Part shown: piece by piece, positions 10,744-55,223 of the stretch | Layout: every line of letters starts with the position of its first letter | Position numbering within the stretch: position 1 is the stretch's first letter | NCBI GenBank assembly: GCA_019746355.1 | Contig: JAIESC010000219.1 | Span: 25,166 to 89,165 of the forward strand | Origin: Xanthobacteraceae bacterium | Lineage (GTDB): Bacteria; Pseudomonadota; Alphaproteobacteria; Rhizobiales; Xanthobacteraceae | Direction: 5' to 3' | Length of the DNA: 64,000 bases | Notes under the pieces: generated by a model | The model's database searches: none | Seen by the model: the letters and a program-made list of their open reading frames with translations, nothing else | Told to the model about the DNA's origin: nothing | Position numbers and translations under genes: made by a program

Positions 10744-10768
10744 GGCGGCAGGCCGGGACAAAACCACC

Positions 10769-11368: not shown

Positions 11369-11392
11369 CGCGTTGCTGAAGCGGCAAAAAAT

Positions 11393-11424: not shown

Positions 11425-11499
11425 GCGAAACACCGCTCGGGCATCTCGCGAATTCTGAAGGTGATGACATCTCGCACGAGATGGCATCAAGGCTCGAAA

Positions 11500-11547
11500 T
11501 TACTTCTTCGAAGCCTTCTTGCCCTTCTTCTTCTTCTTCATCGCCAT
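11500..11547 (-). CDS. Tiny lysine-rich protein (15 aa)
   Basis: The frame MAMKKKKKGKKASKK ends in TAA and is preceded by AAAGGAA nine bases upstream of the ATG. A strong intrinsic terminator lies 75 bases downstream on the same strand. Nine of its 15 residues are lysine, so it would bind nucleic acid or acidic surfaces; any function is a guess. The ribosome-binding site, start, stop and terminator together make it more than a chance frame. The stretch 11369-11794 holds only this gene, its terminator and a palindrome upstream of aroC. The transcript might instead act as a small RNA. Confidence 0.5.
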   Translation of the reverse strand: MAMKKKKKGKKASKK

Positions 11548-11703
11548 GGTCGGTTTCCTTTGCGTGAGCGTTAATCGCTAGACAGGTGGTTCAGCCCCTG
11601 ACCGCAATGACGATGGCACAGCGGCGCTCTGCGTGCAACTGAAAAGTCGAAAAAACCGTTATATTTCCGTAGCTTAATGGCCATTCAGGTTGATATTAAC
11701 CGC

Positions 11704-11721
11704 CGTTCAGACATCTGAACG
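11704..11721. promoter_or_regulatory. 18-bp perfect palindrome upstream of aroC
   Basis: The site reads CGTTCAGA-CA-TCTGAACG, a perfect dyad 73 bases before the aroC start and 156 bases before the divergent small gene. It could be an operator for a dimeric regulator. No T-tract follows, so it is not a terminator. The regulator is unknown. Confidence 0.35.
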
Positions 11722-11794
11722 GGCATTCATTTCGCCGCGCCGCTTTGACCCCGAATGAGGCGCGGGCTACCACACCGCCTCAAGCAGAACCCTC

Positions 11795-12910
11795 ATGTCG
11801 TTCAATACCTTCGGCCATCTCTTCCGCGTCACCACCTTCGGCGAAAGCCACGGGCCGGCAATCGGCTGCGTGGTCGACGGCTGTCCGCCGCGCATCCCGC
11901 TGACCGAGGCCGATATCCAGCCCTATCTCGACAAACGGCGGCCCGGCCAATCGCGCTTCACCACCCAGCGGCAGGAACCGGACACCGTCAAAATCCTCTC
12001 CGGCGTGTTCGCCGACGCGGACACCGGCGGCCAGCTCACGACCGGCACGCCCATTGCGCTGCTGATCGAAAACGTAGATCAGCGCTCCAAGGACTATTCC
12101 GCGATCAAGGACACCTATCGGCCGGGGCACGCGGGCTACGCCTACGACGTCAAATACGGCATCCAGGATTATCGCGGCGGCGGCAGAGCGTCCGCGCGTG
12201 AGACCGCGATGCGGGTCGCCGCCGGCGCGATTGCGCGAAAGATCGTGCCGGGTCTCAGCGTGCGCGGCGCGCTCATTCAGATGGGCGACCAGAAAATCGA
12301 TCGCGCCGCCTGGGACTGGGCTGAAGTCGAGCGCAATCCGTTCTTCTGCCCCGACGCCAAGGCCGCGGCGCGCTTCGTCGACTATCTCGACGGCGTGCGC
12401 AAGCAGGGCTCGTCGGTCGGCGCGATCATCGAGGTGGTCGCCGAAGGCGTGCCGCCGGGGCTTGGCGCGCCGATTTATGCCAAGCTCGACGGCGATCTCG
12501 CCGGCGCGATCATGGGCATCAACGCTGTGAAGGGCGTCGAGATCGGCGCGGGCTTTGCCGCGGCCACGCTTTCCGGCGAGGACAATGCCGACGAGATGCG
12601 TATGGGCAACGACGGCAGGCCGCGGTTTCTCTCCAACAACGCCGGCGGCGTCCTCGGCGGCATCTCGACCGGGCAGCCGGTGGTGGTGCGGTTTGCGGTG
12701 AAGCCGACCTCGTCGATCCTCACGCCACGCCAGACGGTCGATCGCTACGGCAACGAGACCGAGGTGGTCACCAAGGGCCGCCACGACCCATGCGTCGGCA
12801 TCCGGGCAGTGCCCATCGGCGAGGCGATGGTGGCGTGCGTCATTGCCGATCATTATCTGCGACAGAGGGCCCAGGTCGGGGAATTCCCCGCTTGGCCCTT
12901 CACGAAGTAG
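11795..12910 (+). CDS. aroC: Chorismate synthase
   Basis: Converts EPSP to chorismate, the last step of the shikimate pathway, using reduced FMN. The 371-residue protein begins with the family's FGESHG signature region ([13 protein letters not shown]). It also contains [20 protein letters not shown] and the C-terminal signature around SILTPRQTV and [14 protein letters not shown]. Length and motifs are complete. It is followed after 34 bases by ribB, so a two-gene transcript is likely. Confidence 0.97.
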
Positions 12911-40036: not shown

Positions 40037-40093
40037 TTGCAACTCATTCGCAACAAAGTTGACACAGGAAACCATCTCGCGCAAGCTAATTGC
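40037..40093. promoter_or_regulatory. Two Fur/Mur-like boxes around a -35 hexamer in the sitA-porin control region
   Basis: Box 1 (40039-40051) is GCAACTCATTCGC within TTGCAACTCATTCGCAA; box 2 (40081-40093) is GCAAGCTAATTGC. On the minus strand both fit GCRAnTnAnnTTGC, and their starts are 42 bases apart, about four helical turns. A perfect TTGACA (40059-40064) for sitA lies between them, and box 2 covers the place of its -10. This is a repression geometry expected of Mur (manganese-responsive Fur) in Hyphomicrobiales. The assignment to Mur is inference. Confidence 0.6.
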
Positions 40094-40163
40094 TAGTAAG
40101 TCGCAATTGCAGACCACTGCGGCGCGGTCTGGTGGCCGCCCGCAACGGAGGGGTTCGGAGAAA

Positions 40164-41078
40164 ATGAAGCTGAAATTGATCGGCCGGCGCTTCGCCGCAG
40201 CGGCGGCGCTGTTGGCCGTAGCCTTCCTTCCGGCCTCCGCGCAGGCGCAATCGCGTGCCAAGCCGTTCCGCGTCGTGACCACGTTCACCGTGATTCAGGA
40301 CATCGCGCAGAACGTCGCGGGCGACAAAGCGATCGTGGAGTCGATCACCAAGCCCGGCGCGGAAATTCACGACTATCAGCCGACACCGCTCGACATCGTG
40401 CGCGCGCAGGCGGCGGACCTGGTGCTGTGGAACGGGTTCAACCTCGAGCGCTGGTTCGAGAGGTTCTTCCAGGAGGTGAAGGAGGTGCCGGGCGTCGTCG
40501 TCACCGAAGGCATCGCGCCCATGGGCATCACCGAGGGGCCCTACAGCGGCAAGCCCAATCCGCACGCCTGGATGTCGCCGTCCAACGCGCTGAGCTACGT
40601 CGAGAACATCCGCAAGGCGCTGGTGAAATACGATCCCGCGAACGCGGATGCCTACAACCGCAACGCCGCGAGCTATTCCGCGAAGATCAAGGCGCTGGAC
40701 GAGCCGCTGCGCAAGCGCCTTGCGGCGATCCCGGAAAACCAGCGCTGGCTCGTTTCGAGCGAGGGCGCCTTCAGCTATCTCACCCGCGACTACCAGATGA
40801 AGGAGGCCTATCTCTGGCCGATCAACGCCGACGAGCAGGGCACGCCGAAGCAGGTGCGCAAGGTGATCGACATCGTCCGCAAGAACAAGATTCCCGTGCT
40901 GTTCAGCGAAAGCACGATCTCCGACCGGGCCGCAAAGCAGGTCGCGCGCGAGACCGGGGCCCGCTATGGCGGCGTGCTCTATGTCGACTCGCTCAGCGCC
41001 GCGGGCGGGCCGGTGCCGACCTATCTCGACCTGCTGCAGGTGACGGTCGAGACCATCGCCAAAGGTTTCGGCAAGTGA
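40164..41078 (+). CDS. sitA: Manganese/iron ABC transporter, periplasmic binding protein SitA
   Basis: A 304-residue cluster A-I metal-binding protein with signal peptide ([19 protein letters not shown]). Likely ligands are visible: His in [11 protein letters not shown], His in [11 protein letters not shown], Glu near SSEGAFSYL and Asp in YVDSLS. The sequence is of the SitA/YfeA type rather than ZnuA, as it lacks the His-rich loop. It delivers Mn2+ or Fe2+ to the SitCD channel. It leads the four-gene operon, with GGAG shortly before ATG 40164. Confidence 0.93.
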
Positions 41079-41992
41079 CCGCATCGGCGACGATCGCGCG
41101 CGCGCCCGGCCCGCTCACCGCGAACGGGGCCAGCATCGCGGTGCGCCAGCTCGACGTCACCTATGCCAACGGCCTGACCGCCGTGCGCGACGCCTCGTTC
41201 GAGCTCGATCCCGGCACGATCTGCGGGCTGGTCGGGGTCAACGGCAGCGGCAAGTCGACGATCTTCAAGGCGATCATGGGCTTCGTGCAGCCGTCGGCCG
41301 GCGAGGTGAGGCTGTGCGGGCTCCCGGTCCGCGAGGCGCTGAAGAAGAACATCGTCGCCTACGTGCCGCAGAGCGAGGACGTCGACTGGAACTTTCCGGT
41401 GCTGGTGGAAACCGTGGTGATGATGGGCCGCTACGGGCACATGAATTTCCTGCGCATGCCCTCGCGCGCCGATCGCTACAAAGTCGACGAGGCGCTGGAG
41501 CGCGTCGGCATGAGCGAATACCGCCAGCGGCAGATCGGCGAGCTCTCCGGCGGCCAGAAGAAGCGCGTGTTCCTGGCGCGGTCGCTGGCGCAGGAGGGTC
41601 GGATCATCCTGCTCGACGAGCCGTTTACCGGCATCGACGTGAAAACCGAAACCGCGATCATCTCGCTGCTGCGCGAGCTGCGCGCGTCCGGTCATCTGAT
41701 CCTGGTTTCGACCCACAATCTCGGCAGCGTGCCGGAGTTCTGCGACCGCGTCGTGCTGATCAACCGCACCGTGCTGGCCGCGGGGCCGACCGCCGAGGTC
41801 TTCACCCAGGCCAACCTGGAGCGCGCGTTCGGCGGCGTGCTGCGCAACTTCCAGCTTGGCGGCCGCGCGCTGCATGACGACGACGACACCCGCCGCATCA
41901 CCGTGCTGACCGACGATGAGCGGCCGGTCGTGTTCTATGGCGAGCCCCAAGGTGATCGCAAGCCAGGCGGCCGCAAGGACGAAGGATCGTGA
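41075..41992 (+). CDS. sitB: Manganese/iron ABC transporter, ATP-binding protein SitB
   Basis: A 305-residue ABC ATPase. Walker A is GVNGSGKST, the signature is LSGGQKKR, Walker B is IILLDEPF and the switch His is in STHNLG. The C-terminal ~45 residues, acidic and charged ([15 protein letters not shown]), extend beyond the core. The GTG start overlaps the sitA stop by four bases, so translation is coupled. It powers metal uptake through SitC and SitD. Confidence 0.93.
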
Positions 41993-42867
41993 GCGGGATG
42001 GAGCACCTTCTCGCCGAACTGATGGTGCCATTCAGCTACGGCTACATGCTGAAGGCCATGTGGGTGAGTGCGCTGGTTGGCGGCGTCTGCGCCTTCCTGT
42101 CCGCCTATCTGATGCTCAAAGGCTGGTCGCTGATGGGCGACGCGCTGGCGCATTCGATCGTGCCGGGTGTCGCCGCCGCTTATATCCTGGGTGCGCCGTT
42201 CGCGGTCGGGGCCTTCTTCGCCGGCATTCTGGCCGCCGCGGGCATGCAATTCGTCAAGCAGAAGTCGCAACTGCGCGAGGACGCGGTGATCGGCCTTGTG
42301 TTCACTTCGCTGTTCGCGCTCGGGCTTCTGATGGCGTCGATCTGGCCCACGTCCGTGAGCATCCAGACCATCGTGCTCGGCAATATCCTCGCGATCTCCG
42401 ACGAAGACGTGGTGCAGGTCGCGATCATTGCCGCGGTGTCGCTCGCGGTACTGGGGCTGTTGTGGAAGGACCTGATGGTCACGTTTTTCGACGAGAACCA
42501 TGCCCGCAGTGTCGGCCTGAACACCCGCCTGCTGAAGGTCGTGTTCTTCACGCTGCTCAGCGCTTGCACGGTCGCGGCGCTGCAGACCGTCGGCGCATGC
42601 CTCGTCATCGCCATGGTGGTGACGCCCGGTGCCACCGCTTACCTCCTGACCGACCGGTTCGGCTGGCTGATCGTGATCAGCGTTGCGCTCGGCGTCGTCA
42701 CCAGCTTCGTCGGGGCCTATATCAGCTACTTCCTCGACGGCGCGACCGGCGGCGTGATCGTCAGCCTGCAGACGCTGTTGTTCCTCGCCGCGTTCCATTT
42801 GGCGCCCAAGCACGGCGTCGTCGCCGCGCGGCGCAGACGGCAGGCGAGCCCGGAGCCCGCGGCATGA
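41989..42867 (+). CDS. sitC: Manganese/iron ABC transporter, permease SitC
   Basis: A 292-residue ABC-3 family permease with about eight membrane helices. Family segments are [21 protein letters not shown] (the ATPase-coupling loop region), GIVFTSLF-like [13 protein letters not shown] and [16 protein letters not shown]. The GTG start at 41989 overlaps the sitB stop; ATG 41998 is an alternative. It pairs with SitD to form the channel. Confidence 0.92.
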
Positions 42868-43748
42868 ACGCCGTGCTTGATTGGGTCATGGTACCGCTCG
42901 CCTATCCGTTCATGCAGCGGGCGCTGCTCGTGTCGGTGATGGTGGCGGCGGTCTGCGCGGTGCTGTCCTGCTACCTGGTGCTGAAGGGATGGTCGCTGAT
43001 GGGCGATGCCATCTCGCACGCGGTGCTGCCGGGGATCGTGCTCGCCTACGTTCTCAATCTGCCGCTGGCGGTCGGCGCATTCGCCGCAGGCCTCTCCTGT
43101 GCGCTGTTCACCGGCTATCTGAAGGCGAACAGCCGCGTCAAGGAAGACACCGTGATGGGCATCGTGTTCTCCGGGATGTTCGGCCTGGGCCTGGTGATTT
43201 TCACCAAGGTGGAGACCGATCAGCACCTGCTGCATATTCTGTTCGGCAATGTGCTGGGCGTCAGCGTCGGCGACCTGGTCGAAACTGCGGTCGTGGCCTG
43301 CGGCGTGCTGCTCGTCGTCCTGCTCAAGTGGCGCGATCTCTTGCTCTACTGCTTCGATCCAAACCACGCGCGTTCGATCGGCTTGCCGGTGCGGGCGCTG
43401 CACTATGGCTTTCTGGTCCTGCTGTCGCTCGCCATTGTCGCGTCGCTGAAGACCGTCGGCATTATTCTTGTCATCGCCATGCTGATAGCCCCCGGCGCCA
43501 CCGCCTTCTTTCTGACCGGCAGCTTCGGACGCATGCTGCCGATTGCCGCGGCCTCGGCCATGGTCTCCGCCGCGATCGGCACGCTCGTCAGCTTCCATAT
43601 CGACGGCGCGACCGGAGCCTGCATCGTGCTGACGCAGGCGATGTTCTTCGTCCTGGCATTCCTGTTCTCGCCGCGCCGCGGGATATTGCGATTCCGCAAG
43701 GACCCCGGGCCGGCGCAGAGTTACGAGGACGGCGCGCGGGCGCGATAA
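42864..43748 (+). CDS. sitD: Manganese/iron ABC transporter, permease SitD
   Basis: A 294-residue ABC-3 permease, paralogous to SitC ([41 protein letters not shown]). Having two different permeases is typical of the Sit/Yfe systems. ATG 42864 overlaps the sitC stop by four bases. It ends the operon; a GC-rich hairpin without a T-tract lies 58 bases downstream. Confidence 0.92.
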   Translation: MNAVLDWVMVPLAYPFMQRALLVSVMVAAVCAVLSCYLVLKGWSLMGDAISHAVLPGIVLAYVLNLPLAVGAFAAGLSCALFTGYLKANSRVKEDTVMGIVFSGMFGLGLVIFTKVETDQHLLHILFGNVLGVSVGDLVETAVVACGVLLVVLLKWRDLLLYCFDPNHARSIGLPVRALHYGFLVLLSLAIVASLKTVGIILVIAMLIAPGATAFFLTGSFGRMLPIAAASAMVSAAIGTLVSFHIDGATGACIVLTQAMFFVLAFLFSPRRGILRFRKDPGPAQSYEDGARAR

Positions 43749-43805
43749 CCTGGTGGGCACGATGCGGTCAGCCCGACAAGTCTATCCGGAAAGCGACGGC
43801 CTCGC

Positions 43806-43825
43806 GCGCGCACGGCGGTGCGCGC
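43806..43825 (+). terminator. GC hairpin between the convergent sitD and flavoprotein genes
   Basis: An 8-bp perfect stem GCGCGCAC-GGCG-GTGCGCGC in the 189-base gap. There is no T-tract, so it may be only a pause site or part of a Rho-dependent end. Nothing else was recognised in the gap. Confidence 0.35.
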
Positions 43826-43937
43826 CTCCCAGATGTGGTCGGCGAAGCCGGCAGATCGATGTGCTAGATGTCTCGGCTTGGCCAAGCGGCGGGATTGTGT
43901 TTTCGATCAGTGCGAGTTGTCGTGGCGGATCGTCCGG

Positions 43938-45386
43938 CTACACGTCCTTTGCGTTGTGACGGCGGCAAGCATCCGATTCCATCGCTACAACGATGTTCCG
44001 TTGCCCAAGCCATTGCACGATCTGCCAGCATAGATCGGGTGGATGCCGTTGTCCCCATTCCGCAAGAATGGCCCGCACCGTGCGAGGCCGTTGCATATGT
44101 TCCAGCAATGGTGCGATCTCGATGCTCCCGACAAACGCAACCGGTCGGTCCAGCGCCGGATGACACAGCGCCGGCCGGCCTTCGATGAAATCATCAACGA
44201 CCGCGGGAGCGGGCTTGATCGAAACCAGATGCGAGAGGGCAACGCGACAATCCGGATTCAGCGGTCCTTTCGGGTCGTCGGGCGCTGGATCGCTTGTCGA
44301 GTTGGCCGCGCGCTTCGCCCAGAACGGCGTATGCGATCGTTCGGCCATCAAGCGATACAGGTTGGCCGCCTTGGCCATGTGCCGGCGGGCCGTGTCCGCG
44401 TGGTGCGTGTTGTAGAAGTCCAACGCGAGACCGGCATTCGCCGGACGGCGCTTTATCGTGTTGATCACGACCGCCGCTTGCAGGGACGATACGATTGCGG
44501 TTTGCACGCCTTGTGACGATAGCGGATCGAGGGTGACGCCGGCGTCGCCGACACGAACGAAATTCTTGCCCGCTGCCGGCGATGTAGTCCATTCCGAGGC
44601 GTCGCACGTGGCGATATCGGCCGCGGTCCCGCCCGACAGGCGAGGGCCGATCAGGGGAGAGGCGAGCAACGACGCGCGATACCACGCGGAGATCTGTTGC
44701 GGGCTCCAGCCCGACACCCTGTGCGGGTCGACAAAGATCGCCGCGATGCTCGCGCGTTCGCCCAGCGGCGCGCACCACATCCAGTCCTGCCGGCCTGCCT
44801 CGATGCAGGCAACCGATCCGGCCGGGCGGCCGACCTCCCACCTTGCATAGAGCGCGAGCGTCGGAGCCGACGTGCGTCTTCGCTGTCCTGCACCGAGGCG
44901 GCGGCCGCCGGATGCATCGACCACGATATCCGACCGGACTTCCGTCACGGCGGGATGCCCGCGCACGCGCGTCAGCCATCTGCCGTCTTCGCGGCAGGTG
45001 GGCCGGTCCGCGCGCGCCGGCCGAAGGAGTCTGGCTCCCGAGACTTGCGCGTGAGACCGCAGCAGCGCGTCCAGCCGGCCGCGCTCGACATGGAAGCCCT
45101 TCGGCCCGGGCCGATAGCGGCTTTCCGGACAATCGTTGTCCCACCGGACGATGATGTTGTCGAAGCGAACAAAGCCTGCGGCTTCGATCTGGTCCCGCAC
45201 CCCGAGCCGCTCCAGCAGGGGAATGATGCTGGCGGGCAGCGAAGCGCCGAACACCGGTGCGGCCTGTTGCGCGTCCACCACCACCACGTCGTGACCGAGC
45301 GCCGCGAGCCGAGCGGCGGTCGCCGCGCCGGCCGGTCCGCCGCCGATGACGCAGACGCCGGCGTCGACGCGGCCGGCGGACGTCAT
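43938..45386 (-). CDS. FAD-dependent oxidoreductase, LodB/QhpG-like (tryptophan-halogenase-related)
   Basis: A 482-residue flavoprotein. The FAD motif is VIGGGPAGAATAARL, starting near residue 13. Further conserved segments are VERGRLDALL, IVVDASGG and VGDAGVTLDPLSSQG, as in the halogenase/geranylgeranyl-reductase superfamily that includes LodB and QhpG. These proteins oxidise a protein tryptophan during cysteine tryptophylquinone formation in LodA and QHNDH. Here the gene is last in the operon containing a LodA-like protein and overlaps the radical SAM gene by four bases (ATGA). A quinone-cofactor maturation role is therefore a reasonable inference. A halogenase role is less likely because the WxWxIP motif was not seen. 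Confidence 0.72.
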   Translation of the reverse strand: MTSAGRVDAGVCVIGGGPAGAATAARLAALGHDVVVVDAQQAAPVFGASLPASIIPLLERLGVRDQIEAAGFVRFDNIIVRWDNDCPESRYRPGPKGFHVERGRLDALLRSHAQVSGARLLRPARADRPTCREDGRWLTRVRGHPAVTEVRSDIVVDASGGRRLGAGQRRRTSAPTLALYARWEVGRPAGSVACIEAGRQDWMWCAPLGERASIAAIFVDPHRVSGWSPQQISAWYRASLLASPLIGPRLSGGTAADIATCDASEWTTSPAAGKNFVRVGDAGVTLDPLSSQGVQTAIVSSLQAAVVINTIKRRPANAGLALDFYNTHHADTARRHMAKAANLYRLMAERSHTPFWAKRAANSTSDPAPDDPKGPLNPDCRVALSHLVSIKPAPAVVDDFIEGRPALCHPALDRPVAFVGSIEIAPLLEHMQRPRTVRAILAEWGQRHPPDLCWQIVQWLGQRNIVVAMESDACRRHNAKDV

Positions 45387-46747
45387 GCGGGACGCGGCGC
45401 GCCGAGCAGTTCGTCGAGCCGCGACGGGCGCTGTTTCAGCAGGCGGACATAGGCGCCCAGGCAATAGTGCAGCCAGCCGCGAATATAGTCGCAGGCCTCG
45501 CGGCCCGCGTTGATCGCCTCATAGTGACAGGAACCGCCGCACAGGTTCCGCGCCCAGCAGCCCGTGCAGGGAAGCTGCTGCTGGACATGGCGCGCCGCGA
45601 GCCAGGCCGACTGCCTGGCCGGATCGACGCCGGTCTCCGCATTTCCCATCGACGCCCGCTCGTCGCCGACGAACCGATGGCACGCATAAAGGTCGCCGTC
45701 CGCCGAGACGCCCATGTAGCTGCCGCCGGCGCCGCAGGGGTAGGCCTCCCGGCCGCCGCCATGGATGTGCCTGAGCGTCGATATCACGTTGGCGAACGGA
45801 AGCAGGCGGTCTTCAGCAATCTGCTCCTCGAACTTGCGCCCGCACTCGATCATCTGCTGCAGCATCACGTCGAGCGCGCCGCGGTCGAGCTTGCCGCGGC
45901 CGGACGGCGAGCTGAGCATCGGCGAGAACTGGATCGCATCGAAGCCGAAATCGGCGAGGCCGAGCAACGTGTCGGCCAGGCAGAGATTGTCGGGCGTTAC
46001 GGTGACGCGCGCGGTGACGCGAATGCCGCGGCTCGCGCGGGACAGCAAGGGCCGGATCCGCTCCGCCACGCGGTCGAAGCTGCCGCGTCCGGAGCGGAAC
46101 GGCCGAAGCCGGTCGTGCGCCGGCCCGATGCCGTCGATGCTGACCGTGACCGAAAACCCGTATCGCTCGAAAAATTCGATATCGCTTGCCGTCAGCAGGG
46201 TGGCGTTCGTCGTCAGCGAAAAGCCCACGCCGATTCCGGCCGCCGACGCCCGAGCGGTCGCGTATTCCACCACCAGCATCAAGGTGTCACGATTGGCCAG
46301 CGGCTCGCCGCCGAGGAACACGAGGTCGATCTTCTGTCCGCTCGCCGCGCCCGCGAGCAGGCGGTCGACCGCATCCCGCGCGGTCTGCGCCGGCATGTTC
46401 TTGGCGTCGCCGCCGAACGAGCCCTGCTCCGCGTAGCAATAGGTGCAGCCGAGATTGCATTTCTGCGCGATCGCGAGGGAGAACGTGCGAACGGCAACCG
46501 TCTCGGGTGGCGGCTCGGCGGCGCGCGCCGTTCCGCCGAACCCGAGGCCCGTCATCATCAGACGCAGCCGTTCGGAATCCCTCGTCGACAAGCACTGCTC
46601 CAACGCCCCGGCGACATGCGGTTGGAGCGGGTAGATGCGCCCGCTGTCGACGTTCAGCAGCGCCGGCCCCGCCCCGTCGTCGAACAGGTGCGCTTCCGGG
46701 CAGCGCGGCGCGCTGGGGGCTGTCCCGGCCGGAATGCGGTCGCTCAT
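45383..46747 (-). CDS. Radical SAM/SPASM protein maturase (QhpD/anSME-like)
   Basis: A 454-residue radical SAM enzyme. Residues 1-60 resemble a peptide-engaging N-terminal segment (LLNVDSGRIYPLQPHVAGAL). The [4Fe-4S]-SAM motif is Cys97-x3-Cys101-x2-Cys104 (KCNLGCTYC), followed by LGGEPLAN. The SPASM domain provides auxiliary-cluster cysteines (YPCGAGGSYMG, ACHRFVG, PCTGCWARNLCGGSCHYEAI, ACDYIR and HYCLG). Such enzymes modify peptides or proteins, for example by thioether cross-links in QhpC or formylglycine formation. It lies 25 bases downstream of the LodA-like gene, its probable substrate. Confidence 0.88.
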   Translation of the reverse strand: MSDRIPAGTAPSAPRCPEAHLFDDGAGPALLNVDSGRIYPLQPHVAGALEQCLSTRDSERLRLMMTGLGFGGTARAAEPPPETVAVRTFSLAIAQKCNLGCTYCYAEQGSFGGDAKNMPAQTARDAVDRLLAGAASGQKIDLVFLGGEPLANRDTLMLVVEYATARASAAGIGVGFSLTTNATLLTASDIEFFERYGFSVTVSIDGIGPAHDRLRPFRSGRGSFDRVAERIRPLLSRASRGIRVTARVTVTPDNLCLADTLLGLADFGFDAIQFSPMLSSPSGRGKLDRGALDVMLQQMIECGRKFEEQIAEDRLLPFANVISTLRHIHGGGREAYPCGAGGSYMGVSADGDLYACHRFVGDERASMGNAETGVDPARQSAWLAARHVQQQLPCTGCWARNLCGGSCHYEAINAGREACDYIRGWLHYCLGAYVRLLKQRPSRLDELLGAPRPA

Positions 46748-46772
46748 GTCACGCCTCGGGCCGGCAACCGGC

Positions 46773-47972
46773 TCACGGGATGTCGTCGCCCGGACCGCGC
46801 TCGGTTTCGATCAGCTTTCCGTTGCGGAGGCGTGCGATGCCGATCTTGTCCTGATGGAGTTCGTAGTCGTCCCCGGTCCTCAACCGGGGCGGGGACACAG
46901 CGTGGTTCGCGTATTGCTTGCGATAGACGTTGACGTTCACATTGTCGCTTTCGTCGAGGTAAGCCCGGACCGGCAGGTTTTCAGACCAGTAACCGGTGCA
47001 TGCCGTGAAATCGGTTTGCCACGGCGAGCAGCAACCGCTGGTGAGCTGACCGCGCACCGCGCCGGGTTCTCCAGCCGCGTTCTTGTACCGCACCCGGATG
47101 TCGCGCGGATCGATATGCGGGTCCACGCCAGGCCGGTAGAACAGTGCCTTGATGTCAGGCACCTCTCCTTCGAAACCGAACGACACCTCAAACCCGGGAC
47201 TGAAGTCGCCGGTGCACGAGCGCAACGCCAATTCATCGATGCTCCGTGCAGTTGCGTTGTGCAGAGTGCCGGTTGCGCCGCCGCTGTCTGGGGCGACGTC
47301 CTGGCGCAGCCGTAGAAGCAGGGATGCTTTCGCGTTCGGCTCCGGGTCGACCTCCGGCGAATAGTCGCCCGGCGCAACGATGATGCATGCTTCCAGCATC
47401 GGCAGCTGCGCGGCCGCCCCGTTGAGCTGGCACGTCACGGTCCCGTCGCAGCTTCCGTCCGCGATTTCGGCGGTGTGCTCGGGAAACGAAGGAACCGGCA
47501 GTCCGTTCTGCTTGCGGTGAACCGTGGACTTCGGCGGGATGAAGGTCCCGTCCGCGGTGATCTGGCCAAGCGGAATTTGCGCGCCTTCGGCGAAGTCGGG
47601 GAGCGTGCCGATCAGCTGCCCGCCGTTGGTATCGGAGGATGCCCTCGCCGCGATCACATGGGTCTGGTCACCAAGCGGGCGTTCTTCCCGGTATCGGATC
47701 TTCTGGTTGGCCACATTGGCCGACCAGACGGGGGTGATCCCGAGCTGTCCCATGATCGCGGGCGTCAACTCGCCCAATCCAACGTGATTGGCTCCATAAG
47801 CGAAGATGCGGAACTTGACCGCCTGACGCTTCATCAGGCCGTTAGACTTGTAGTTCTGCTGCGGGTCTCCGAACACGAAGTGATCGTCGTTCTTTGCCAT
47901 GCGCGCAATACCGATGGCCGGATGAATCTTGAAAGCAACGACATCGCCGAGATCGTTTGGAAAGGCCATCAT
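46773..47972 (-). CDS. Half-length LodA/GoxA-like (putative CTQ) oxidase
   Basis: A 399-residue protein resembling LodA/GoxA, the cysteine-tryptophylquinone (CTQ) amino-acid oxidases that make H2O2, ammonia and an aldehyde or oxo acid. The N-terminus has the family opening FKIHPAIGIARM; the C-terminal part has RSCTGDFSPGFEV and CCSPWQTDFTAC. Cys253 and Trp318 lie 65 residues apart, the same spacing I recall for the CTQ residues Cys516 and Trp581 of LodA. Full LodA is about 726 residues, so a large central part is missing. No signal peptide is seen. Extra Cys (175, 181, 196, 314, 315, 325) could be radical SAM targets. ATG 47972 or the next ATG follows AGGAG. The substrate is unknown. Confidence 0.75.
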   Translation of the reverse strand: MMAFPNDLGDVVAFKIHPAIGIARMAKNDDHFVFGDPQQNYKSNGLMKRQAVKFRIFAYGANHVGLGELTPAIMGQLGITPVWSANVANQKIRYREERPLGDQTHVIAARASSDTNGGQLIGTLPDFAEGAQIPLGQITADGTFIPPKSTVHRKQNGLPVPSFPEHTAEIADGSCDGTVTCQLNGAAAQLPMLEACIIVAPGDYSPEVDPEPNAKASLLLRLRQDVAPDSGGATGTLHNATARSIDELALRSCTGDFSPGFEVSFGFEGEVPDIKALFYRPGVDPHIDPRDIRVRYKNAAGEPGAVRGQLTSGCCSPWQTDFTACTGYWSENLPVRAYLDESDNVNVNVYRKQYANHAVSPPRLRTGDDYELHQDKIGIARLRNGKLIETERGPGDDIP

Positions 47973-48005: not shown

Positions 48006-49076
48006 CTAGCTGGTGAGTGCGGGCATGTATTCGAAAGTCAGGCCCGCCTGTTTGTTGGTGTTCGGATCGACGAAGCTGACCACGTCGACGGCCGACGTTC
48101 GCATTTGCACCATCAGAGTCTGAGCACGCGCGATCTTGTTGGGTTCGCCGTTGAATGCGAGGTGCAGCGCGCGAAGCATGTCCGAATAGAGCATGTTGAA
48201 TTCGTCCACGAGCTGCCGCGCGTCGGTGCCTACGGCGTAGTCGGACGCCTTCGGGTTGTCCGGCAGGTCGTAGACTTTCGACGCAACGAAAGGGATGGCC
48301 GCGCCGCCATAGGAGAATCCGAGCGGAGAATTGTCCTGGATCAGGCGGCGGCCGTGATAGACCTCGGCGAACCGGTAATAATGAGCGAACTCACCGCTGC
48401 CGTCGAACGGTTCGTTGGTCGTGCCTTCGCCGTCCTGCACGATCCATTCCAGCGCCGCGACCGCGTCCACGACACCTGTGATCGGCTTGAGGCGCTGCCA
48501 CAGCCCCGGCCGGTTGACCGTGACCTGGGGATTGGAGGGGGTGGCGAAGAGCGGGTCGCCAAGGTCGATGATCTTCTCGATGATCGCCTTGTAGAACTGC
48601 CCGATGGTGGCGAATGCCGGCTGATCGTCCGCGGCCAGAGGAATGACCGGAAAATTCAGCGGTGTCTCCGGCTTCTCGATCTCCATGAAGACGTCCTTCA
48701 CCAACGCGGGCGTGAACTTCTTCAGGCCGACGACCAGGCCGTTGCTGATCGACATCGGCAGCGGCCCTGGATACTGCGGAGTGAAATTGGGATCGGCGAT
48801 GTTCGGCGTCCCGCCGATGGCGTTGAGCACGTTGCCCACCATCGCCATGTGGAGCATTTCCTCCTCGGCGATTTCTTCAAGCGTCCGGAAGATCTCGGTA
48901 TTGGCGTTGCGGTGGATGCTATAGGCCGCCGTCAGATAGGGCGGAATGGTCGAATGCTCGAGGCGCAACGCACGCTGTAGCAGGTCATGCAAATGGGACG
49001 CGCTGCCGGCGTTCTTCGCCGCAGAGAGAAATTTTGTTTCGATAAGAAGCAACGCATCCCCCACGCGACAGCGCAA
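48006..49076 (-). CDS. Ferritin-like protein of the VioB/RebD (iminophenyl-pyruvate dimer synthase) type
   Basis: A 356-residue protein with the ferritin-like domain found in VioB, RebD and StaD, which join two oxidised amino-acid imines in bisindole synthesis. Helix 1 carries LRLEHSTIPPYLTAAYSI (Glu40) and helix 2 EEIAEEEMLHMAMVGN (Glu73, His76). Further conserved parts are AIGGTPNI and GEFAHYYRFAEVYHGR. Unlike VioB (about 1000 residues) it consists of little else. It precedes the LodA-like gene by 33 bases, so it may act on an oxidised product or on peroxide. The start is uncertain: TTG 49076 or GTG 49064. Confidence 0.75.
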   Translation of the reverse strand: MRCRVGDALLLIETKFLSAAKNAGSASHLHDLLQRALRLEHSTIPPYLTAAYSIHRNANTEIFRTLEEIAEEEMLHMAMVGNVLNAIGGTPNIADPNFTPQYPGPLPMSISNGLVVGLKKFTPALVKDVFMEIEKPETPLNFPVIPLAADDQPAFATIGQFYKAIIEKIIDLGDPLFATPSNPQVTVNRPGLWQRLKPITGVVDAVAALEWIVQDGEGTTNEPFDGSGEFAHYYRFAEVYHGRRLIQDNSPLGFSYGGAAIPFVASKVYDLPDNPKASDYAVGTDARQLVDEFNMLYSDMLRALHLAFNGEPNKIARAQTLMVQMRTSAVDVVSFVDPNTNKQAGLTFEYMPALTS

Positions 49077-49166: not shown

Positions 49167-49928
49167 TCAGCCGATGAACCAGCGATCGTCGCGCAGGAAA
49201 ATGAAGTTGAACGCGGCCGGGCCGGCGATGGTGACGGTGGGCGGATCTTCTTGGCAGATCACCCGCTGCATGACCGAGCTATAGACGGCGGTCGCCGAAG
49301 GCACGGCTGCGCTCAAGTCGAACGCCGCTCCCGGCGCGGCCCGGTGGTTCCAGAGCACGACGAATTCCTCCGACAGGGCGACGATGCATTGGTCGATGCC
49401 GGCCGCCGCCATCGCGCCGGAGCTGGCCGCGACTTCGCTGCGTACGGCGGCGCGGAACGCATCGGCCGTCTGTGCGGCGTCGCGCTTCACGCCAAAATGA
49501 ATCGAGGTCTCGCCGCTCTGCCAGTCCGTCGCGCGGTCCCATAGAAAAAAAGCAATCGCGGTGTCGTTGGCGGGGTCGAGCAGGATCGGAAACGCGGCGC
49601 GGCTGCGGCCGCGCTGATAGACGCCGCCGTGCGACTGCGCGTAGACGCGCCCGCGCAGCGTATCGTTCATGATGCGGCGATAGTCATCCGGCGACCGGTA
49701 GGCGATCACCGCGACCTCGTGCGGGCAGGGGACCCCCTCCTGCTCCGGCACGGCAGCGGGAAGATACGCGGCAAGTCCGAGCGGCTGGAGCATGTACGGC
49801 GTGCCGGGCATGAAGGTCTGGCCGAGCTCTCGCTGGAAGCGCTCCTGCGTGAGATCGGGATGCCGAAAGCCGACAAAGACCCGAAGCCCCGCGGGCGGGA
49901 CGTCGAAATTCGGTGTGCCGCCGTTCAT
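49167..49928 (-). CDS. Uncharacterised protein of the LodA-like operon (253 aa)
   Basis: No domain was recognised. It is soluble, without a signal peptide, and appears as two alpha/beta halves: FRHPDLTQERFQRELGQTFMPG, then HEVAVIAYRSPDDYRRIM in the first, and FFLWDRATDWQSGETSIHFGVKRDAAQT in the second. The alternation resembles a stress-response barrel or DUF fold, but this is only an impression. ATG 49928 has GGAGAAGG just before it. It lies 17 bases behind the GMC gene, so it is cotranscribed. Confidence 0.6.
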   Translation of the reverse strand: MNGGTPNFDVPPAGLRVFVGFRHPDLTQERFQRELGQTFMPGTPYMLQPLGLAAYLPAAVPEQEGVPCPHEVAVIAYRSPDDYRRIMNDTLRGRVYAQSHGGVYQRGRSRAAFPILLDPANDTAIAFFLWDRATDWQSGETSIHFGVKRDAAQTADAFRAAVRSEVAASSGAMAAAGIDQCIVALSEEFVVLWNHRAAPGAAFDLSAAVPSATAVYSSVMQRVICQEDPPTVTIAGPAAFNFIFLRDDRWFIG

Positions 49929-49945
49929 AACCTTCTCCAATCCGG

Positions 49946-51394
49946 CTAGCCAAGATCGAGCGCGAGCTGCTGCGCATGACGCCGGGATGTCGCAGCGATG
50001 GTCAGATGCGGATTGGCCGCGCCGATGGCCGGCCAGCAGGACGCATCGGCCACGACGATCCGCGGTGAACCATGCACCCGCCCGAACGGATCGGTGACGG
50101 AGCTCGCCGGTTCGGTGCCCATCGGCAGGCCGCCGGCTTCGTGGAAGCTCGCGCCCGGCGGCAGGACCGTCACGTCGGCCGGATCGGCCTTGAGCGCTTC
50201 GCCGACGCGCTTCAGCGCCGCGACCATCGTGTCGCGTAGCGCCTCCTCCTCGGGCGTGTAGGCGAAGTGCACGGTGTAGCTCCCGGGAGTGCCCGGCGGG
50301 CCCGGCTCGATGAAGGTCGTATCTCGTCCGCCCACCGGTCCGAACGCGCGCACCATGGCCGCATACTCGGCGGTGCGCACAGGCTTCCAGTTGGTCGGGT
50401 CCTGGAGCAGGAACAGATTGTTGCCGGGAAGGTGGAGCTCGATCTGGTGCTTGATGCCGCCGCCGGCCGGAACGTAGACGATCGCGGCCTCCGGCCTTGT
50501 CGCGTCGAAGATCTCCGGCGGAACGTTGAAATAGACTCGGCAGAACAAATGGTCGGCGATGCGCTTTCCCATTAATCCGCTGGCGTTCGGCAGCCCGGAC
50601 GCCATTGCCAACTGAACGGATTCGAACGCGCCGGCGGCGAGAACGACGCTCCCTGCCAGGACCTCGTGCGTGGTCCCGGTCGAACGATCGAGCGCGGCCA
50701 CCCCGCGCACCTTGTCCTTGCTCGCGCCAAACAGGACCTGCGTCGCAAGGCTGCCGGTCGCAATCTTCAAGAGTTCGGCCGGCAAGCCCAGCACTGCGCT
50801 GCGAAGCAGGATGGCCACGGCGTTGGCCACCGTTCCGCCGATCCAGCCGTCGGCGGTGGGGCGCGTGTCGATCGCGAAGGGGCCGGGCTCGGCCGCCATG
50901 CCCGCCATCCGAAGCAGCCGGCAGACCGCCTGGGTCAGGGTCGGGCCGCCGTAGTTGCTCGAAACGCGGAAATGACGCTCGGCCCATTGATAGACCGGAT
51001 CGAGTTCAGCTGGTCCGAACGGCCAGGCGGTGAAGTCCTCGTTGCGGAAGCGCGGCGCTGCGCCGTTCCAGAACAGGCCGCGCCCGCCCAGGCAGCCGAT
51101 CAGTGTTCCGAAATCGCCGCCTCCCGCGAGCTTCGGCCGGTAATCGATGGCGGCGCGCAGCTTGCGGACCGTTGCGCGGTCGAACCGCAGGTCCGTGGTG
51201 GCCGAATGCGTCAGCAACGCCATCGGGCCCGCTTCGAGGAGCGCGACGCGCTTTCCTTTTTCGACCAGGGTCAGGGCCGCGGTGATTCCGGCGGTGCCGC
51301 CGCCGACCACCACGCAGTCGAACGCTGTCGCGCTCGACGCGGCGGCAATGTCGGCCAGCGGCCGCGTGAGCGTGCGTTCGAGCAGCGAACTCAT
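49946..51394 (-). CDS. GMC family FAD-dependent oxidoreductase
   Basis: A 482-residue GMC-type flavoprotein. The FAD Rossmann motif is GGGTAG at residues 31-36 (VVVGGGTAGITAAL), with LLEAG after it. The middle has SVVLAAGAFESVQLA, and the C-terminal active-site region reads HEAGGLPMGTEP and DASCWPAIGAANPHLTIAA, with a His in the expected place. The family oxidises alcohols or sugars and passes electrons to O2 or acceptors. The substrate is unknown. Its start overlaps the upstream gene's stop by four bases (ATGA). Confidence 0.83.
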   Translation of the reverse strand: MSSLLERTLTRPLADIAAASSATAFDCVVVGGGTAGITAALTLVEKGKRVALLEAGPMALLTHSATTDLRFDRATVRKLRAAIDYRPKLAGGGDFGTLIGCLGGRGLFWNGAAPRFRNEDFTAWPFGPAELDPVYQWAERHFRVSSNYGGPTLTQAVCRLLRMAGMAAEPGPFAIDTRPTADGWIGGTVANAVAILLRSAVLGLPAELLKIATGSLATQVLFGASKDKVRGVAALDRSTGTTHEVLAGSVVLAAGAFESVQLAMASGLPNASGLMGKRIADHLFCRVYFNVPPEIFDATRPEAAIVYVPAGGGIKHQIELHLPGNNLFLLQDPTNWKPVRTAEYAAMVRAFGPVGGRDTTFIEPGPPGTPGSYTVHFAYTPEEEALRDTMVAALKRVGEALKADPADVTVLPPGASFHEAGGLPMGTEPASSVTDPFGRVHGSPRIVVADASCWPAIGAANPHLTIAATSRRHAQQLALDLG

Positions 51395-52965
51395 GCGTCC
51401 TCCGATGCGTCCGCACCGGACACCAGGACGCGGATCCGATGAAATACGAAATGATTGGGGACGATGGGAAAATAGCCGCCGTTCGGGTCGGCCTTGCGCC
51501 ATCGCTTGCCGGCGCATCGCAAATAGACCTGGCGCGCCAGCGCATCGTTGCGGACCGCGCCGACGCAGATCCAGTCGAGATCGTTTTCCAGGTCCGGCCG
51601 CCGGAAGTAAGCCGAGAAGAACGACCCGCGGCGTTCGAGCCGCAGCCACGCGTCGAGCAACAGGCCGTCGCCCAAGGCCGGCCCGTAATGGTTGTCGTCG
51701 TAGACCGTGCTGGCGTTCCAGTTGATCCGGTAGCCGTCGTTCTCGTCGTGCTCGCATCCCGCATAGGGCCGCGCGCCGTGCGGATCGTAGAAGGAGTGTT
51801 TGTCGTGGTGTCCCTGCGGCAGCCGCGGCGTGCCGTCCGGCTTCCAGGGCTCGATGTGCCGGCCCGGGTCGCCGTTCACGACGGCGATCTCGAGTGTGCT
51901 GGCCTGGGTCGCCTGCGCGCTCGAAACTTTCGCCTCGCTGATGAAGTCGCCGACGATTCCGCGACGAAGACCCGCACCGCCTCCCGAATAATAGGGCGTC
52001 TCTTCGAGCGCCTGCAGCACCTGCGCTTCGAGACGCCGCAGCCTGCGTTCCACGTCGTCTGGAGCGGGCGGCCGCGCGGCCGGCTCGAACGGCAGGATAT
52101 CGATGTGCACGCCGTCATCCTGGTAGACGTGGCAATAGCGGTTGGCTCGTGCGTAGCCGAATGCCCAATTGTCGGTGTCGATGTCGCGTCCGCGGAACGT
52201 TTCGTCGCAAAGCGTGCGATAGGGCAGGAGCGCCTGCTGGCAGGCCAGCACCGATCGCGTCAGCGCCGCATGCATGCCGGGCCGGGCGGCAAGCTCCTTT
52301 AGTTGCGCGGGATCGAGCAACCCGCCGTCCGGCACGACGATGGCCCCGAGCGCGAGCGATCCCGAACGGATGGCCGGCTCGACGCGGGTGAGGCCGGCTT
52401 TGTCGACCACGATCGCATCGAGACCGAGCCTGATACCGTCGGCCAGTGCCTGCTCGGGATCGGCCCCGGTCATCGCTATTGCGGCGCGCGGCGTTGCGGC
52501 GCGCAGCGCGGCTACGTCCTCGGTCTGCCGAACGACAAACAGGATGCTGCGGAAGCGCGGCCCGCCGGCGATCGCGGCGGCCGCTCTTTCAATCAGTTGA
52601 GGCTTGGCGGCCTGATCCGCCTGCGTGAGATCGATGACAATGTCGAGCTGCGAAGGCAGATCTTCGAGGAGCACGCTGAGCAGCGTAGCGCGGGCGCGGT
52701 GGCGCACCGGCTTGCCGTGCCGGTCGGAAAAGGTCGCGCCGATTTCGGCAAGCCTGAGCTCGGCGGCGGTCGAACTGCTGACGCGGCCGGGTTGTCCGGT
52801 CAGCGGTGCCAGGTCATCGCTGGGACAGCAGACAACGCGGCCGTCCTTGCTGAGATGGACGACGAGCATCACGCCGTCGGCACCTGCGGTGTACGCGGAA
52901 ATCAATGCCGCGGATGACTGGGAGGGGGCCTGCAGACATCCGGAACCGCTCTGCCAGATCCGCAT
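51391..52965 (-). CDS. Degenerate GDPD-like barrel fused to a DUF1349/concanavalin-like sandwich
   Basis: A 524-residue protein that begins the minus-strand operon. Residues 10-240 follow the glycerophosphodiester phosphodiesterase pattern (SAYTAGADGVMLVVHLSKDGRVV, then SSSTAAELRLAEIG). However, the metal-binding Glu and Asp of the usual GVELDV are Met and Val here (GVMLVV), and the His of the HDD loop is lost (PSDDL). Catalysis is therefore unlikely. Residues 310-510 look like a carbohydrate- or ligand-binding sandwich (LLLDAWLRLERRGSFFSAYFRR, LDWICVGAVRN). No signal peptide is seen. ATG 52965 was chosen over an upstream start because of the GGGCGAG stretch before it. Confidence 0.6.
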   Translation of the reverse strand: MRIWQSGSGCLQAPSQSSAALISAYTAGADGVMLVVHLSKDGRVVCCPSDDLAPLTGQPGRVSSSTAAELRLAEIGATFSDRHGKPVRHRARATLLSVLLEDLPSQLDIVIDLTQADQAAKPQLIERAAAAIAGGPRFRSILFVVRQTEDVAALRAATPRAAIAMTGADPEQALADGIRLGLDAIVVDKAGLTRVEPAIRSGSLALGAIVVPDGGLLDPAQLKELAARPGMHAALTRSVLACQQALLPYRTLCDETFRGRDIDTDNWAFGYARANRYCHVYQDDGVHIDILPFEPAARPPAPDDVERRLRRLEAQVLQALEETPYYSGGGAGLRRGIVGDFISEAKVSSAQATQASTLEIAVVNGDPGRHIEPWKPDGTPRLPQGHHDKHSFYDPHGARPYAGCEHDENDGYRINWNASTVYDDNHYGPALGDGLLLDAWLRLERRGSFFSAYFRRPDLENDLDWICVGAVRNDALARQVYLRCAGKRWRKADPNGGYFPIVPNHFVFHRIRVLVSGADASEDA

Positions 52966-53058: not shown

Positions 53059-53126
53059 TACAACCGTTCCGTGCGTTTAACGCGACTGCCTTGCGGCGCG
53101 GTCGCTGGGGCGTTGAGAGCCGAGCA

Positions 53127-53984
53127 ATGAGCTTGCGTGCGGCGCTGACGGATTTCCTGACGGACTGGCGCCAGGATCTGGCGCCTGCTTGGCACGTGGC
53201 GTTACAGAATGTCGATCCGGCACTGGCCGCCGTCCGCAGCGACCTGCAGTTCGATCCCGCCGTTCCGATCTTTCCGTCACGGCGCAACGTGCCGCTGAGC
53301 GGCGCGCGTGCAGATGCGCATGTGCTCCGCGCATTCGATGGGACCAAGCCTTCGGACATCCGATGCGTCCTGCTCGGTCAGGATCCTTATCCCCGGATCT
53401 CGCGTGCGACCGGCCGCTCCTTTGAACAGGGCGATCTCGCAGCCTGGAATGACGGGGCCGTTGCGACGAGCCTCAAGCGGCTTGTGCAGATGATCGCCAA
53501 TGCGCGCACCGGCACCAATCGCTTCACGAAGCCGAACGGATGGAACGCCGTTCTCGGCGCGATTGCGGACGGCGAGCTCGATTTCCAGTCGCCGCGCGAC
53601 CTGTTCGACCGCCTGCAGGAGCAGGAGGGGCTGTTGTTTCTCAATGCGAGCCTCACGATCACGCGTTATGCCCCCGGCGGCGCGTCGGAACAATTGTTCG
53701 GCCATATCCCGCTTTGGGCACCGGTCGTCGGAGCGGTGTTGAACGGGCTCGCCCGGCGCCAGACAGGCCAGGTCGTCTATCTGCTGCTCGGGACCCCAGC
53801 TCATGCGCTGGCAGATCGCGCCGGAATTCGACAGGCCGCCGAGCAGGCCGGCACATGGCAGAGGCGCGTCGACGAAGTCAGGCTGTCGCACCCGGCATCC
53901 AACGGCTTTCTGGGCGACCGCAATCCATTTCTCGAAGTCAATGCGAGGCTTGCGTCGATGGGTGCGACGCACATCCGCTGGTGA
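53127..53984 (+). CDS. Uracil-DNA glycosylase-like protein (family 1 related)
   Basis: A 285-residue protein with the layout of family 1 UDG. The catalytic-loop motif is GQDPYP (residues 84-89), with Asp86 and Tyr88 kept but the usual His after Tyr replaced by Pro. The core strand is GLLFLNASLTI, and HPASNGFLGDRNPF holds His255 in the place of the HPSPLS His. Such proteins flip bases and cut the N-glycosidic bond in DNA. The altered loops suggest another base or substrate, or a non-repair role. It opens a four-gene operon divergent from the LodA-like operon. ATG 53127 starts the domain. Confidence 0.72.
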   Translation: MSLRAALTDFLTDWRQDLAPAWHVALQNVDPALAAVRSDLQFDPAVPIFPSRRNVPLSGARADAHVLRAFDGTKPSDIRCVLLGQDPYPRISRATGRSFEQGDLAAWNDGAVATSLKRLVQMIANARTGTNRFTKPNGWNAVLGAIADGELDFQSPRDLFDRLQEQEGLLFLNASLTITRYAPGGASEQLFGHIPLWAPVVGAVLNGLARRQTGQVVYLLLGTPAHALADRAGIRQAAEQAGTWQRRVDEVRLSHPASNGFLGDRNPFLEVNARLASMGATHIRW

Positions 53985-54009
53985 TTTTTCCAAGAGAGGG
54001 ACCGACGCA

Positions 54010-55221
54010 ATGCCATTCGACCCCGAACCGAGTTTCGCCCGGCGGATCATCGACTATGGGCTGACCGAGGACGACCTCGCGCAGCGCCAGCCTGCGCCGC
54101 CCGTTCCGTTTGCCGCGTTGCCGTTGCCATGGCCGAGCGGCGCTGCGCCCAATCCGCGGCCCTTTGATGTGGAGCCGGCGATGGATGATGAGTTGCCGAA
54201 AGCGGACGTTCTGGTGGTGACGTGGACCGTAGCCGAGGTCGAGGCTCTGGCCGACACGCTGACTCCGGGTTTCGGTCGCAACACCTGGTATCGGTATGGG
54301 CGGCGCTTCCAGGATCACTATGTGCCGCTGATCCGGCGCGGCGCGCCCTCGCTGCGCGCCAATCGTCTGGGCTCGTATTTCCTCACCCGGATCGCCAACA
54401 AGGATGTCCTCTGCTTCAAGTCGGAGCTGCATCTGAACCAGGACGGTAAACGCACCGGGGAGGGCAAGGCCACGCTGCCAGTCAAGGATCTGTTTCATCA
54501 GATGATCAGGGAGGTGCGTCCCTCGCTGGTGATCACAGTCGGCACCGCGGGCGCGACGTTTCCGCCGGACCGGGACGTGCAGATCGGCGGGATGAAATGC
54601 CGGCCGCACGAGCTCGGAGACGTGATGATAACGCGCGGCGCGAAATTCAGGCTTTCCCAGGAGTTCGCACAGGAGCCGTTCGCCAATTCGTCATACCGCT
54701 GCCAGTCGTTCAATATTCCGACGCAACGGCTGGAAGACGCCAAGCGGCTGTTGCGGGACAACGCCGAGAAGCTTTCCGAACCCGCGTTTGGTCCTCCTCA
54801 CGCGAAGTATCAATGGCCGATTCAAGGGCTGGTGCCCGGCTTCAGGAATCAGCCGAACCTGTGGATCGACGGTCGCGACTTCCCGGAATTTCACCCGATC
54901 CTGACGACGGACTTTTTCGAGTTCGGCACGTCCACCAACGGGCTGGAGCTTCAGGGCTGCGGTGTTGAAATGGGCGACGCCGTGCTCGGCATGGTGGTCG
55001 ACGAGTTGCCCGCCCAGGACCGTCCGGATTGGCTCGTGATCCGCAACGCCTCGGATCCGCAGATCAACGGCGCGCTGCCCGCGGGCGGAGCTTCGTCTCT
55101 TCCGAGCCCGCTGCGACGCGCGCTCAACATGCAGGCCCATTGGGCGGTCTGGTACTATGAAACATACGGATACTGGACCAGTGTCAACAGCGCGATCGGC
55201 GTCTGGGCGATGGCGGCCTGA
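54010..55221 (+). CDS. Nucleoside phosphorylase/nucleosidase-like protein
   Basis: A 403-residue protein of the PNP/UDP phosphorylase fold. The glycine loop is ITVGTAGATF (from about residue 175), followed by ELGDVMITRGAKF. The C-terminal part has GVEMGDAVLGMVVDEL and NASDPQING with Asp349 at the position of the purine-binding Asp. The first 65 residues are Pro-rich and probably flexible. It may split nucleosides or nucleotides; the substrate is unknown. It lies 25 bases after the UDG-like gene and three bases before the fusion gene. Confidence 0.7.
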   Translation: MPFDPEPSFARRIIDYGLTEDDLAQRQPAPPVPFAALPLPWPSGAAPNPRPFDVEPAMDDELPKADVLVVTWTVAEVEALADTLTPGFGRNTWYRYGRRFQDHYVPLIRRGAPSLRANRLGSYFLTRIANKDVLCFKSELHLNQDGKRTGEGKATLPVKDLFHQMIREVRPSLVITVGTAGATFPPDRDVQIGGMKCRPHELGDVMITRGAKFRLSQEFAQEPFANSSYRCQSFNIPTQRLEDAKRLLRDNAEKLSEPAFGPPHAKYQWPIQGLVPGFRNQPNLWIDGRDFPEFHPILTTDFFEFGTSTNGLELQGCGVEMGDAVLGMVVDELPAQDRPDWLVIRNASDPQINGALPAGGASSLPSPLRRALNMQAHWAVWYYETYGYWTSVNSAIGVWAMAA

Positions 55222-55223
55222 GC

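Follow-up and report, generated by a model that had tools for sequence, protein, structure and literature searches.

The closest described relatives of the locus reported here include two CTQ enzyme systems. In the maturation of quinohemoprotein amine dehydrogenase (QHNDH), the radical SAM enzyme (rSAM) QhpD makes Cys-Asp/Glu thioethers; the passages of PMC8172795 on these bonds give the links in QhpC as Cys7-Glu16, Cys27-Asp33 and Cys41-Asp49. Cys27 is joined to Asp33 by QhpD. The second system comprises LodA and GoxA, and in LodA the CTQ Cys and Trp are 65 residues apart, as given in the relevant passage of PMC4417212. In passages of PMC7876137, tryptophylquinones are presented as generated convergently by divergent strategies. 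The rSAM PapB makes non-alpha thioethers between Cys and Asp/Glu and tolerates C-x(0-6)-D, according to passages of PMC9413430. In the portions of the literature searched, we found no description of a radical SAM gene adjoining a LodA-like one. Here we analysed such a locus in a 64,000-nucleotide stretch of DNA from a Xanthobacteraceae bacterium, the whole of which is called the window.

Gene organization of the locus

A preliminary description of this DNA had reported three tightly spaced minus-strand genes, and their positions and spacing were confirmed. The stop of the LodA gene is separated from the rSAM start by 25 bases, and the rSAM stop and the flavoprotein start have ATGA in common, giving a 4-base overlap. 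Because of this overlap, the flavoprotein start was placed at 45386 and not at the mechanical TTG at 45464. A ferritin-like gene, which the preliminary description had not mentioned, ends 33 bases upstream of the LodA gene. The features of the locus are as follows.

46773..47972, minus strand: short LodA-fold protein, 399 aa (PF17990 LodA_N and PF18417 LodA_C)
45383..46747, minus strand: SPASM radical SAM enzyme with an N-terminal RRE-like domain (Radical_SAM match)
43938..45386, minus strand: QhpG-like FAD monooxygenase, predicted to oxidise Trp (NF049967 QhpG match)
48006..49076, minus strand: ferritin-like protein (PF12902, 208 bits)
58110-60605, strand opposite to the LodA operon: subtilase (PF00082, 171 bits)
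46986..47030, minus strand: CSPWQTDFTACTGYW, read from the translation as Cys315-x5-Asp321-x3-Cys325-x3-Trp329, with a predicted Cys315-Asp321 thioether and Cys325-Trp329 CTQ
47187..47216, minus strand: CTGDFSPGFE, read from the translation as Cys253-x8-Glu262, an optional second thioether (predicted) with the spacing of QhpC Cys7/Glu16

Several other genes of the window were recorded. ORFs at 40059-43867, which by eye resemble a metal ABC transporter (binding protein, ATPase and permeases), converge on the LodA operon. The subtilase is preceded by two divergent genes without a Pfam match (53091-53984 and 53803-55221) and by an amidohydrolase-domain protein of 951 aa (window region 53091-58079). 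A GMC oxidoreductase with an adjacent Pfam-less protein lies near the short LodA both in the window (49167-51757) and in a Methylocystaceae MAG (L001:3-1913).

The LodA-fold protein

The half-length LodA-like protein of the preliminary description was borne out: at 399 aa, it scored above both curated cut-offs, with 40 bits for LodA_N (cut-off 26.3) and 29.7 bits for LodA_C (cut-off 25). Its scores on the NCBIfam equivalogs were 21 bits for LodA (cut-off 600) and 26 bits for GoxA (cut-off 750). By these profile scores, the window protein has the fold of the LodA family but is neither LodA nor GoxA proper. Alignment with LodA around the CTQ residues had been set beforehand as a refuting test. 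In the profile alignment to 2ymw and 3weu, the Asp, Cys and Trp of the window protein aligned with the CTQ region of LodA and GoxA, the Cys and Trp corresponding to LodA Cys516 and Trp581. Cys315, Asp321, Cys325 and Trp329 were kept in all 96 aligned short LodAs, and in the window protein a distance of only 4 residues separates the CTQ Cys from the Trp. The structure model of the window LodA aligned with GoxA and LodA from residue 12-13 onward only. The N-terminal extension had a median of 15 residues before the string HPAIG, which is present in 94 of the 96 short LodAs. This extension is a candidate recognition tag; no cleaved leader was evident on the LodA protein.

The radical SAM enzyme

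The preliminary description had called the second gene a SPASM radical SAM enzyme. The radical SAM part of this assignment held, with a Radical_SAM match of 64 bits, and the Pfam SPASM match (18 bits) fell under its cut-off of 21.5. The cluster cysteines were nevertheless invariant in 14 aligned rSAM rows, both those of CxxxCxxC (97/101/104) and, in the SPASM region, Cys 338, 356, 394, 397, 403, 407 and 419. The structure model (pLDDT 81.4) matched CteB over residues 17-437, the N-terminal RRE-like region included.

The two best NCBIfam models for the window rSAM were QhpD (306 bits, cut-off 453) and PapB (265 bits, cut-off 340). On the QhpD model, all eight other LodA-linked rSAMs tested scored 251-326 bits and two QhpD proteins scored 744 and 481; the rSAM of L009 scored slightly higher for PapB than for QhpD. 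In a tree of 26 rSAMs, 17 LodA-linked sequences were split from 8 QhpD with support of 100/99, under midpoint rooting and with a long-branch warning for one outgroup row. We rejected the identification of the enzyme as QhpD, as it scored below the TIGR03906 cut-off and fell in a clade of its own.

Gene context in other genomes

A genome scan, in which one of the two DNA patterns contained the extra Cys discussed below, gave 153 LodA relatives, of which the best 80 were examined. Ten short-LodA loci from four phyla were present among these 80, and in all ten the rSAM and flavoprotein genes lay directly downstream, in the same order as in the window. The order of the trio is therefore more than chance, since it is repeated in ten of ten loci from four phyla. 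The co-occurrence of LodA, rSAM and flavoprotein, for which the preliminary description had proposed a survey, was thus found throughout the short-LodA loci. None of the other 70 of the best 80 loci had such an rSAM in flanks of up to 9 kb (phmmer, E 1e-5), and the profile gave the same result.

A ferritin-like gene stood directly upstream in eight of the ten short-LodA loci. It was not found by phmmer at L003 and L004, where the rSAM is present. These two loci have a common upstream gene without a Pfam match (L003:7797-8990 and L004:2543-4162) at the position that the ferritin-like gene occupies elsewhere.

We clustered the neighbouring ORFs with a length of at least 100 aa from 13 short or split loci and the window. 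LodA and the rSAM were present in every locus, as was a flavoprotein, although the one at L117 is the partner of an ordinary LodA several kilobases off. A free ferritin-like gene was present in nine loci, the window counted. Two more clusters (10 and 8 loci) are located opposite to the rSAM gene, of which they seem to be an antisense shadow. The Qhp alpha or beta subunit, a Qhp-type protease and an ABC transporter were absent from the recurring neighbours of the 13 loci and the window.

The preliminary description had also placed a subtilase in the facing operon. The gene is real and on the other strand, about 10 kb from the LodA trio, but it is not part of the system: among the 80 LodA loci, the sole subtilase match was at a long-LodA locus (L059), and the ORF clustering gave no recurring subtilase in the 13 loci and the window.

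We then considered other substrates for the rSAM. QhpC (PF08992) was found in only one of the ten short-LodA genomes, several of which are MAGs; given its absence from the matches in the other nine, the rSAM is unlikely to serve QhpC. The window contained no second QhpC-like motif. The related rSAM models (PapB, SCIFF and nif11 maturases) have peptide substrates, and the target of the enzyme might be a distinct small peptide, or else the ferritin-like protein, with the position beside LodA reflecting a shared pathway. However, the 33- and 25-base gaps around the LodA gene leave no room for a peptide gene there, the ORFs clustered further out being of at least 100 aa, and the rSAM is kept in L003 and L004 despite the lack of a phmmer match for a ferritin-like gene. 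We consider such a substrate quite unlikely.

Split LodA genes and reverse search

A profile search of 397 genomes gave 18 with LodA-like matches. At L117, L118 and L119, an rSAM of the same kind adjoins a LodA encoded by two genes, of which the C-half carries a fused ferritin-like domain. We also searched in reverse with the rSAM profile through 591 genomes (248 + 194 + 149; E up to 1e-80), which gave 12 places. Each of the eight matches that scored at least 469 bits adjoined a LodA with C-x5-D-x3-C; five were already known, and L121, L122 and L127 were added. The other four, at 276-339 bits, comprised three QhpD beside QhpC (L123, L128 and L129) and one other rSAM (L124). An rSAM gene missing next to close homologues would have counted against the locus as first described; the gene adjoined LodA in all ten short LodAs with readable context and in these eight reverse matches.

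In total, six split-LodA loci (L117, L118, L119, L121, L122 and L127) stand beside the same rSAM clade. The split-form LodA parts score below the Pfam cut-offs, and their identity as LodA comes from profile comparison. The PF12902 ferritin-like domain is fused to the LodA C-half, above the Pfam cut-off, in five of the six, L121 being the exception. The rSAM precedes the fused C-half in three split loci: L117, L142 (L122) and L143 (L127). A QhpG-like flavoprotein lies next to the rSAM in three of the six (L118, L119 and L121). None was found next to it in the sequence examined at L117, L122 and L127, where the only trace was a weak opposite-strand match of 36 bits near L127. The wider clade thus does not always have an adjoining flavoprotein, and how the Trp is oxidised at these three loci becomes a question. 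Two genomes carry more than one LodA locus. Near the split rSAM-linked LodA of L117, an ordinary LodA with its own flavoprotein lies a few kilobases away (3503-5632; 8646-11872). One Bradyrhizobium genome (G003) has the short two-Cys LodA locus L003 and the split locus L118, each with its own rSAM and flavoprotein.

Adjacency of the rSAM to LodA was thus recorded in 17 loci, the window included. Judged by its sequence relationships, the LodA-linked rSAM clade is specific to LodA. These observations bear on the alternative that the enzyme is of the ordinary LodA/GoxA type and needs only the flavoprotein for its maturation, with the rSAM as a neighbour without effect. LodA and GoxA are indeed described with LodB and GoxB alone in passages of PMC4417212 and PMC7876137. 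Nevertheless, an adjacency that extends over both short and split forms, in a clade confined to LodA, makes this alternative very improbable.

Cysteine at D-6 and presence of the rSAM

An extra Cys six residues before the CTQ Asp (D-6; Cys315 in the window protein) was present in all 113 short relatives covering the site (95 and 18 more). We compared this position with the presence of the rSAM in 91 distinct motif-bearing LodA ORFs from the genome scan and the profile search, a gene fetched twice being counted once; seven of 108 loci were dropped for lack of a motif ORF (L064, L066, L072, L076, L087, L089 and L102). All 13 rSAM-linked LodAs had Cys at D-6 and none of the 78 rSAM-less LodAs did (63 Ala, 12 Gly and 3 Ser), where absence of the rSAM is local for some loci with flanks of about 1.5 kb. 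As one scan pattern included the Cys, cases of Cys without rSAM are fairly tested, those of rSAM without Cys less so. The three loci found from the rSAM side (L121, L122 and L127) all had the Cys. The correlation may reflect a single evolutionary event, because the LodA-linked rSAMs form one clade, probably one lineage, and the individual correlations are not independent.

The short distance between the CTQ Cys and Trp suggests another role for the rSAM. With the two 4 residues apart, against 65 in LodA (PMC4417212, in the passage cited above), maturation may need a different catalyst, and the rSAM itself could form or complete the Cys325-Trp329 thioether, leaving Cys315 for a disulphide, a metal site or another purpose. 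However, the passages of PMC7876137 concerned describe CTQ formation in LodA and GoxA with a flavoprotein, name no rSAM for them, and assign Cys-Asp/Glu links to the rSAM of QHNDH. Furthermore, Cys315 shows the same invariance as the CTQ residues and, among the loci examined, occurs only together with the rSAM. This role is unlikely.

Comparison with QhpC

QhpC from a qhp operon reads LC27QPMEAD33LYGC37SDPC41WW43PAQVPD49, in a numbering that agrees with the passages of PMC8172795 and PMC7876137 that give it. QhpC Cys27-Asp33-Cys37 corresponds to window Cys315-Asp321-Cys325, with the same C-x5-D-x3-C before the CTQ Trp. The QhpC pair Cys7/Glu16 is matched in the window by Cys253/Glu262 at the same spacing. 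A Cys nine residues before the Glu of PGxE was found in 10 of 10 QhpC (three near-identical), in 17 of 96 short LodAs (the window and 16 others; 18 in a looser count of the pair) and in one of the 88 ORFs for long LodAs, which comprise 75 distinct motif sequences. The putative Cys253/Glu262 thioether would thus be optional. A pair like Cys41-Asp49, with Cys at CTQ Cys+2 and Asp at Trp+6, occurred in 11 of 96 short LodAs and in all six split forms. None of the 96 aligned short LodAs had all three Cys-Asp/Glu pairs together.

Flavoprotein and ferritin-like protein

The best NCBIfam model for the window flavoprotein was QhpG (NF049967; 279 bits, cut-off 240), on which Stappia QhpG scored 433. Its PDB sequence matches were the halogenase CmlS (3i3l, E 1.1e-22) and then QhpG (7ctq, E 7.6e-22). 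QhpG outscored LodB and GoxB for the window flavoprotein and for all ten other rSAM-linked flavoproteins tested (of 13), and seven of these ten reached the QhpG cut-off. In all nine controls from rSAM-less loci, LodB or GoxB scored higher, and none was over the QhpG cut-off. Of the Qhp-type maturation genes named in the preliminary description, the flavoprotein exceeds the QhpG cut-off, and the rSAM stays below that of QhpD and in a separate clade. NF049967 also catches, above its cut-off, flavoproteins of LodA-type loci; a QhpG annotation therefore does not imply a qhp operon.

The ferritin-like protein showed an E / ExxH / E / (E or D)..H pattern when its alignment was read by eye, the residues of which we take to be ligands. 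VioB-type partners of amino-acid oxidases use the imine or the peroxide. The match of the ferritin-like protein to the VioB model was only 15.6 bits.

Proposed maturation pathway

The order of the trio, its conservation, the family identity, the residue correlation and the predicted fold stand. The locus probably specifies a CTQ oxidase of the LodA type whose maturation follows Qhp-type chemistry; from these observations we infer the covalent bonds, the sequence of the steps, the substrate and what the ferritin-like protein does. The undescribed class proposed at first, with CTQ and rSAM thioether links, is thereby supported as the best reading, and the candidate crosslink residues can be named.

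Through its N-terminal RRE-like domain, the rSAM would bind LodA as a nascent chain, and it would link Cys315 to Asp321 (S to C-beta); in the window protein, it would probably also link Cys253 to Glu262 (S to C-gamma). By analogy with QHNDH, as treated in passages of PMC7876137, it would crosslink the unfolded chain. As the LodA substrate is far larger than QhpC, the action of the rSAM would have to precede folding. The QhpG-like flavoprotein would then hydroxylate Trp329, which would join Cys325 to give CTQ. The short loop between Cys and Trp could be made more rigid by a thioether on the Asp close to CTQ. Once mature, the enzyme would use O2 to oxidise a primary amine or an amino acid, and the ferritin-like partner may act on the product (imine or H2O2) or help maturation.

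If this is true, the protein is an rSAM-crosslinked, oxidase-type quinoprotein, a kind not found in our literature searches, and the rSAM target is a full-size folded enzyme, not a small subunit or peptide. Single-residue predictions follow for the LodA crosslinks. With its 400 residues, its use of O2 and its small maturation set, such a CTQ enzyme would be of practical interest for amine biosensing and protein crosslink engineering.

Comparison with known systems

Compared with LodA/GoxA and their partners LodB/GoxB, the window protein is of about 400 aa against about 700, carries Cys at D-6 and has its CTQ Cys and Trp 4 residues apart. The locus adds an rSAM gene in between, and its flavoprotein is nearer to the QhpG model than to LodB/GoxB. 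Fungal LodA-like loci resemble it in having a PF12902 gene beside the LodA-like gene (PMC4417212), but they are described with a LodB-like gene, and the word 'radical' is absent from the main text of that source. PapB, a ranthipeptide maturase, is the second-best model for the window rSAM and the best for that of L009; however, the substrate of PapB is a short RiPP precursor, and the window rSAM is under the PapB cut-off.

The maturation of QHNDH (QhpC, QhpD, QhpG and QhpE) shares with the locus an rSAM, a QhpG-like flavoprotein and the C-x5-D-x3-C motif. It differs in that the window substrate has a LodA fold and that no alpha or beta subunit, subtilase or ABC transporter recurs. Profile and fold comparisons suggest that QHNDH and LodA share an ancestor. 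We lean towards a single family for QHNDH and LodA/GoxA, in which the last domain of the alpha subunit would correspond to the N-terminal part of LodA and QhpC to a shrunken C-terminal part. CTQ would then have arisen once, the short and split LodAs would keep an ancestral rSAM maturation lost by LodA/GoxA, and the links C7-E16, C27-D33 and C41-D49 would have been gained and lost as modules. As a bridge between the two CTQ enzymes, the rSAM-linked family suggests their common descent, in contrast to the convergence proposed in PMC7876137, and makes the origin of CTQ testable.
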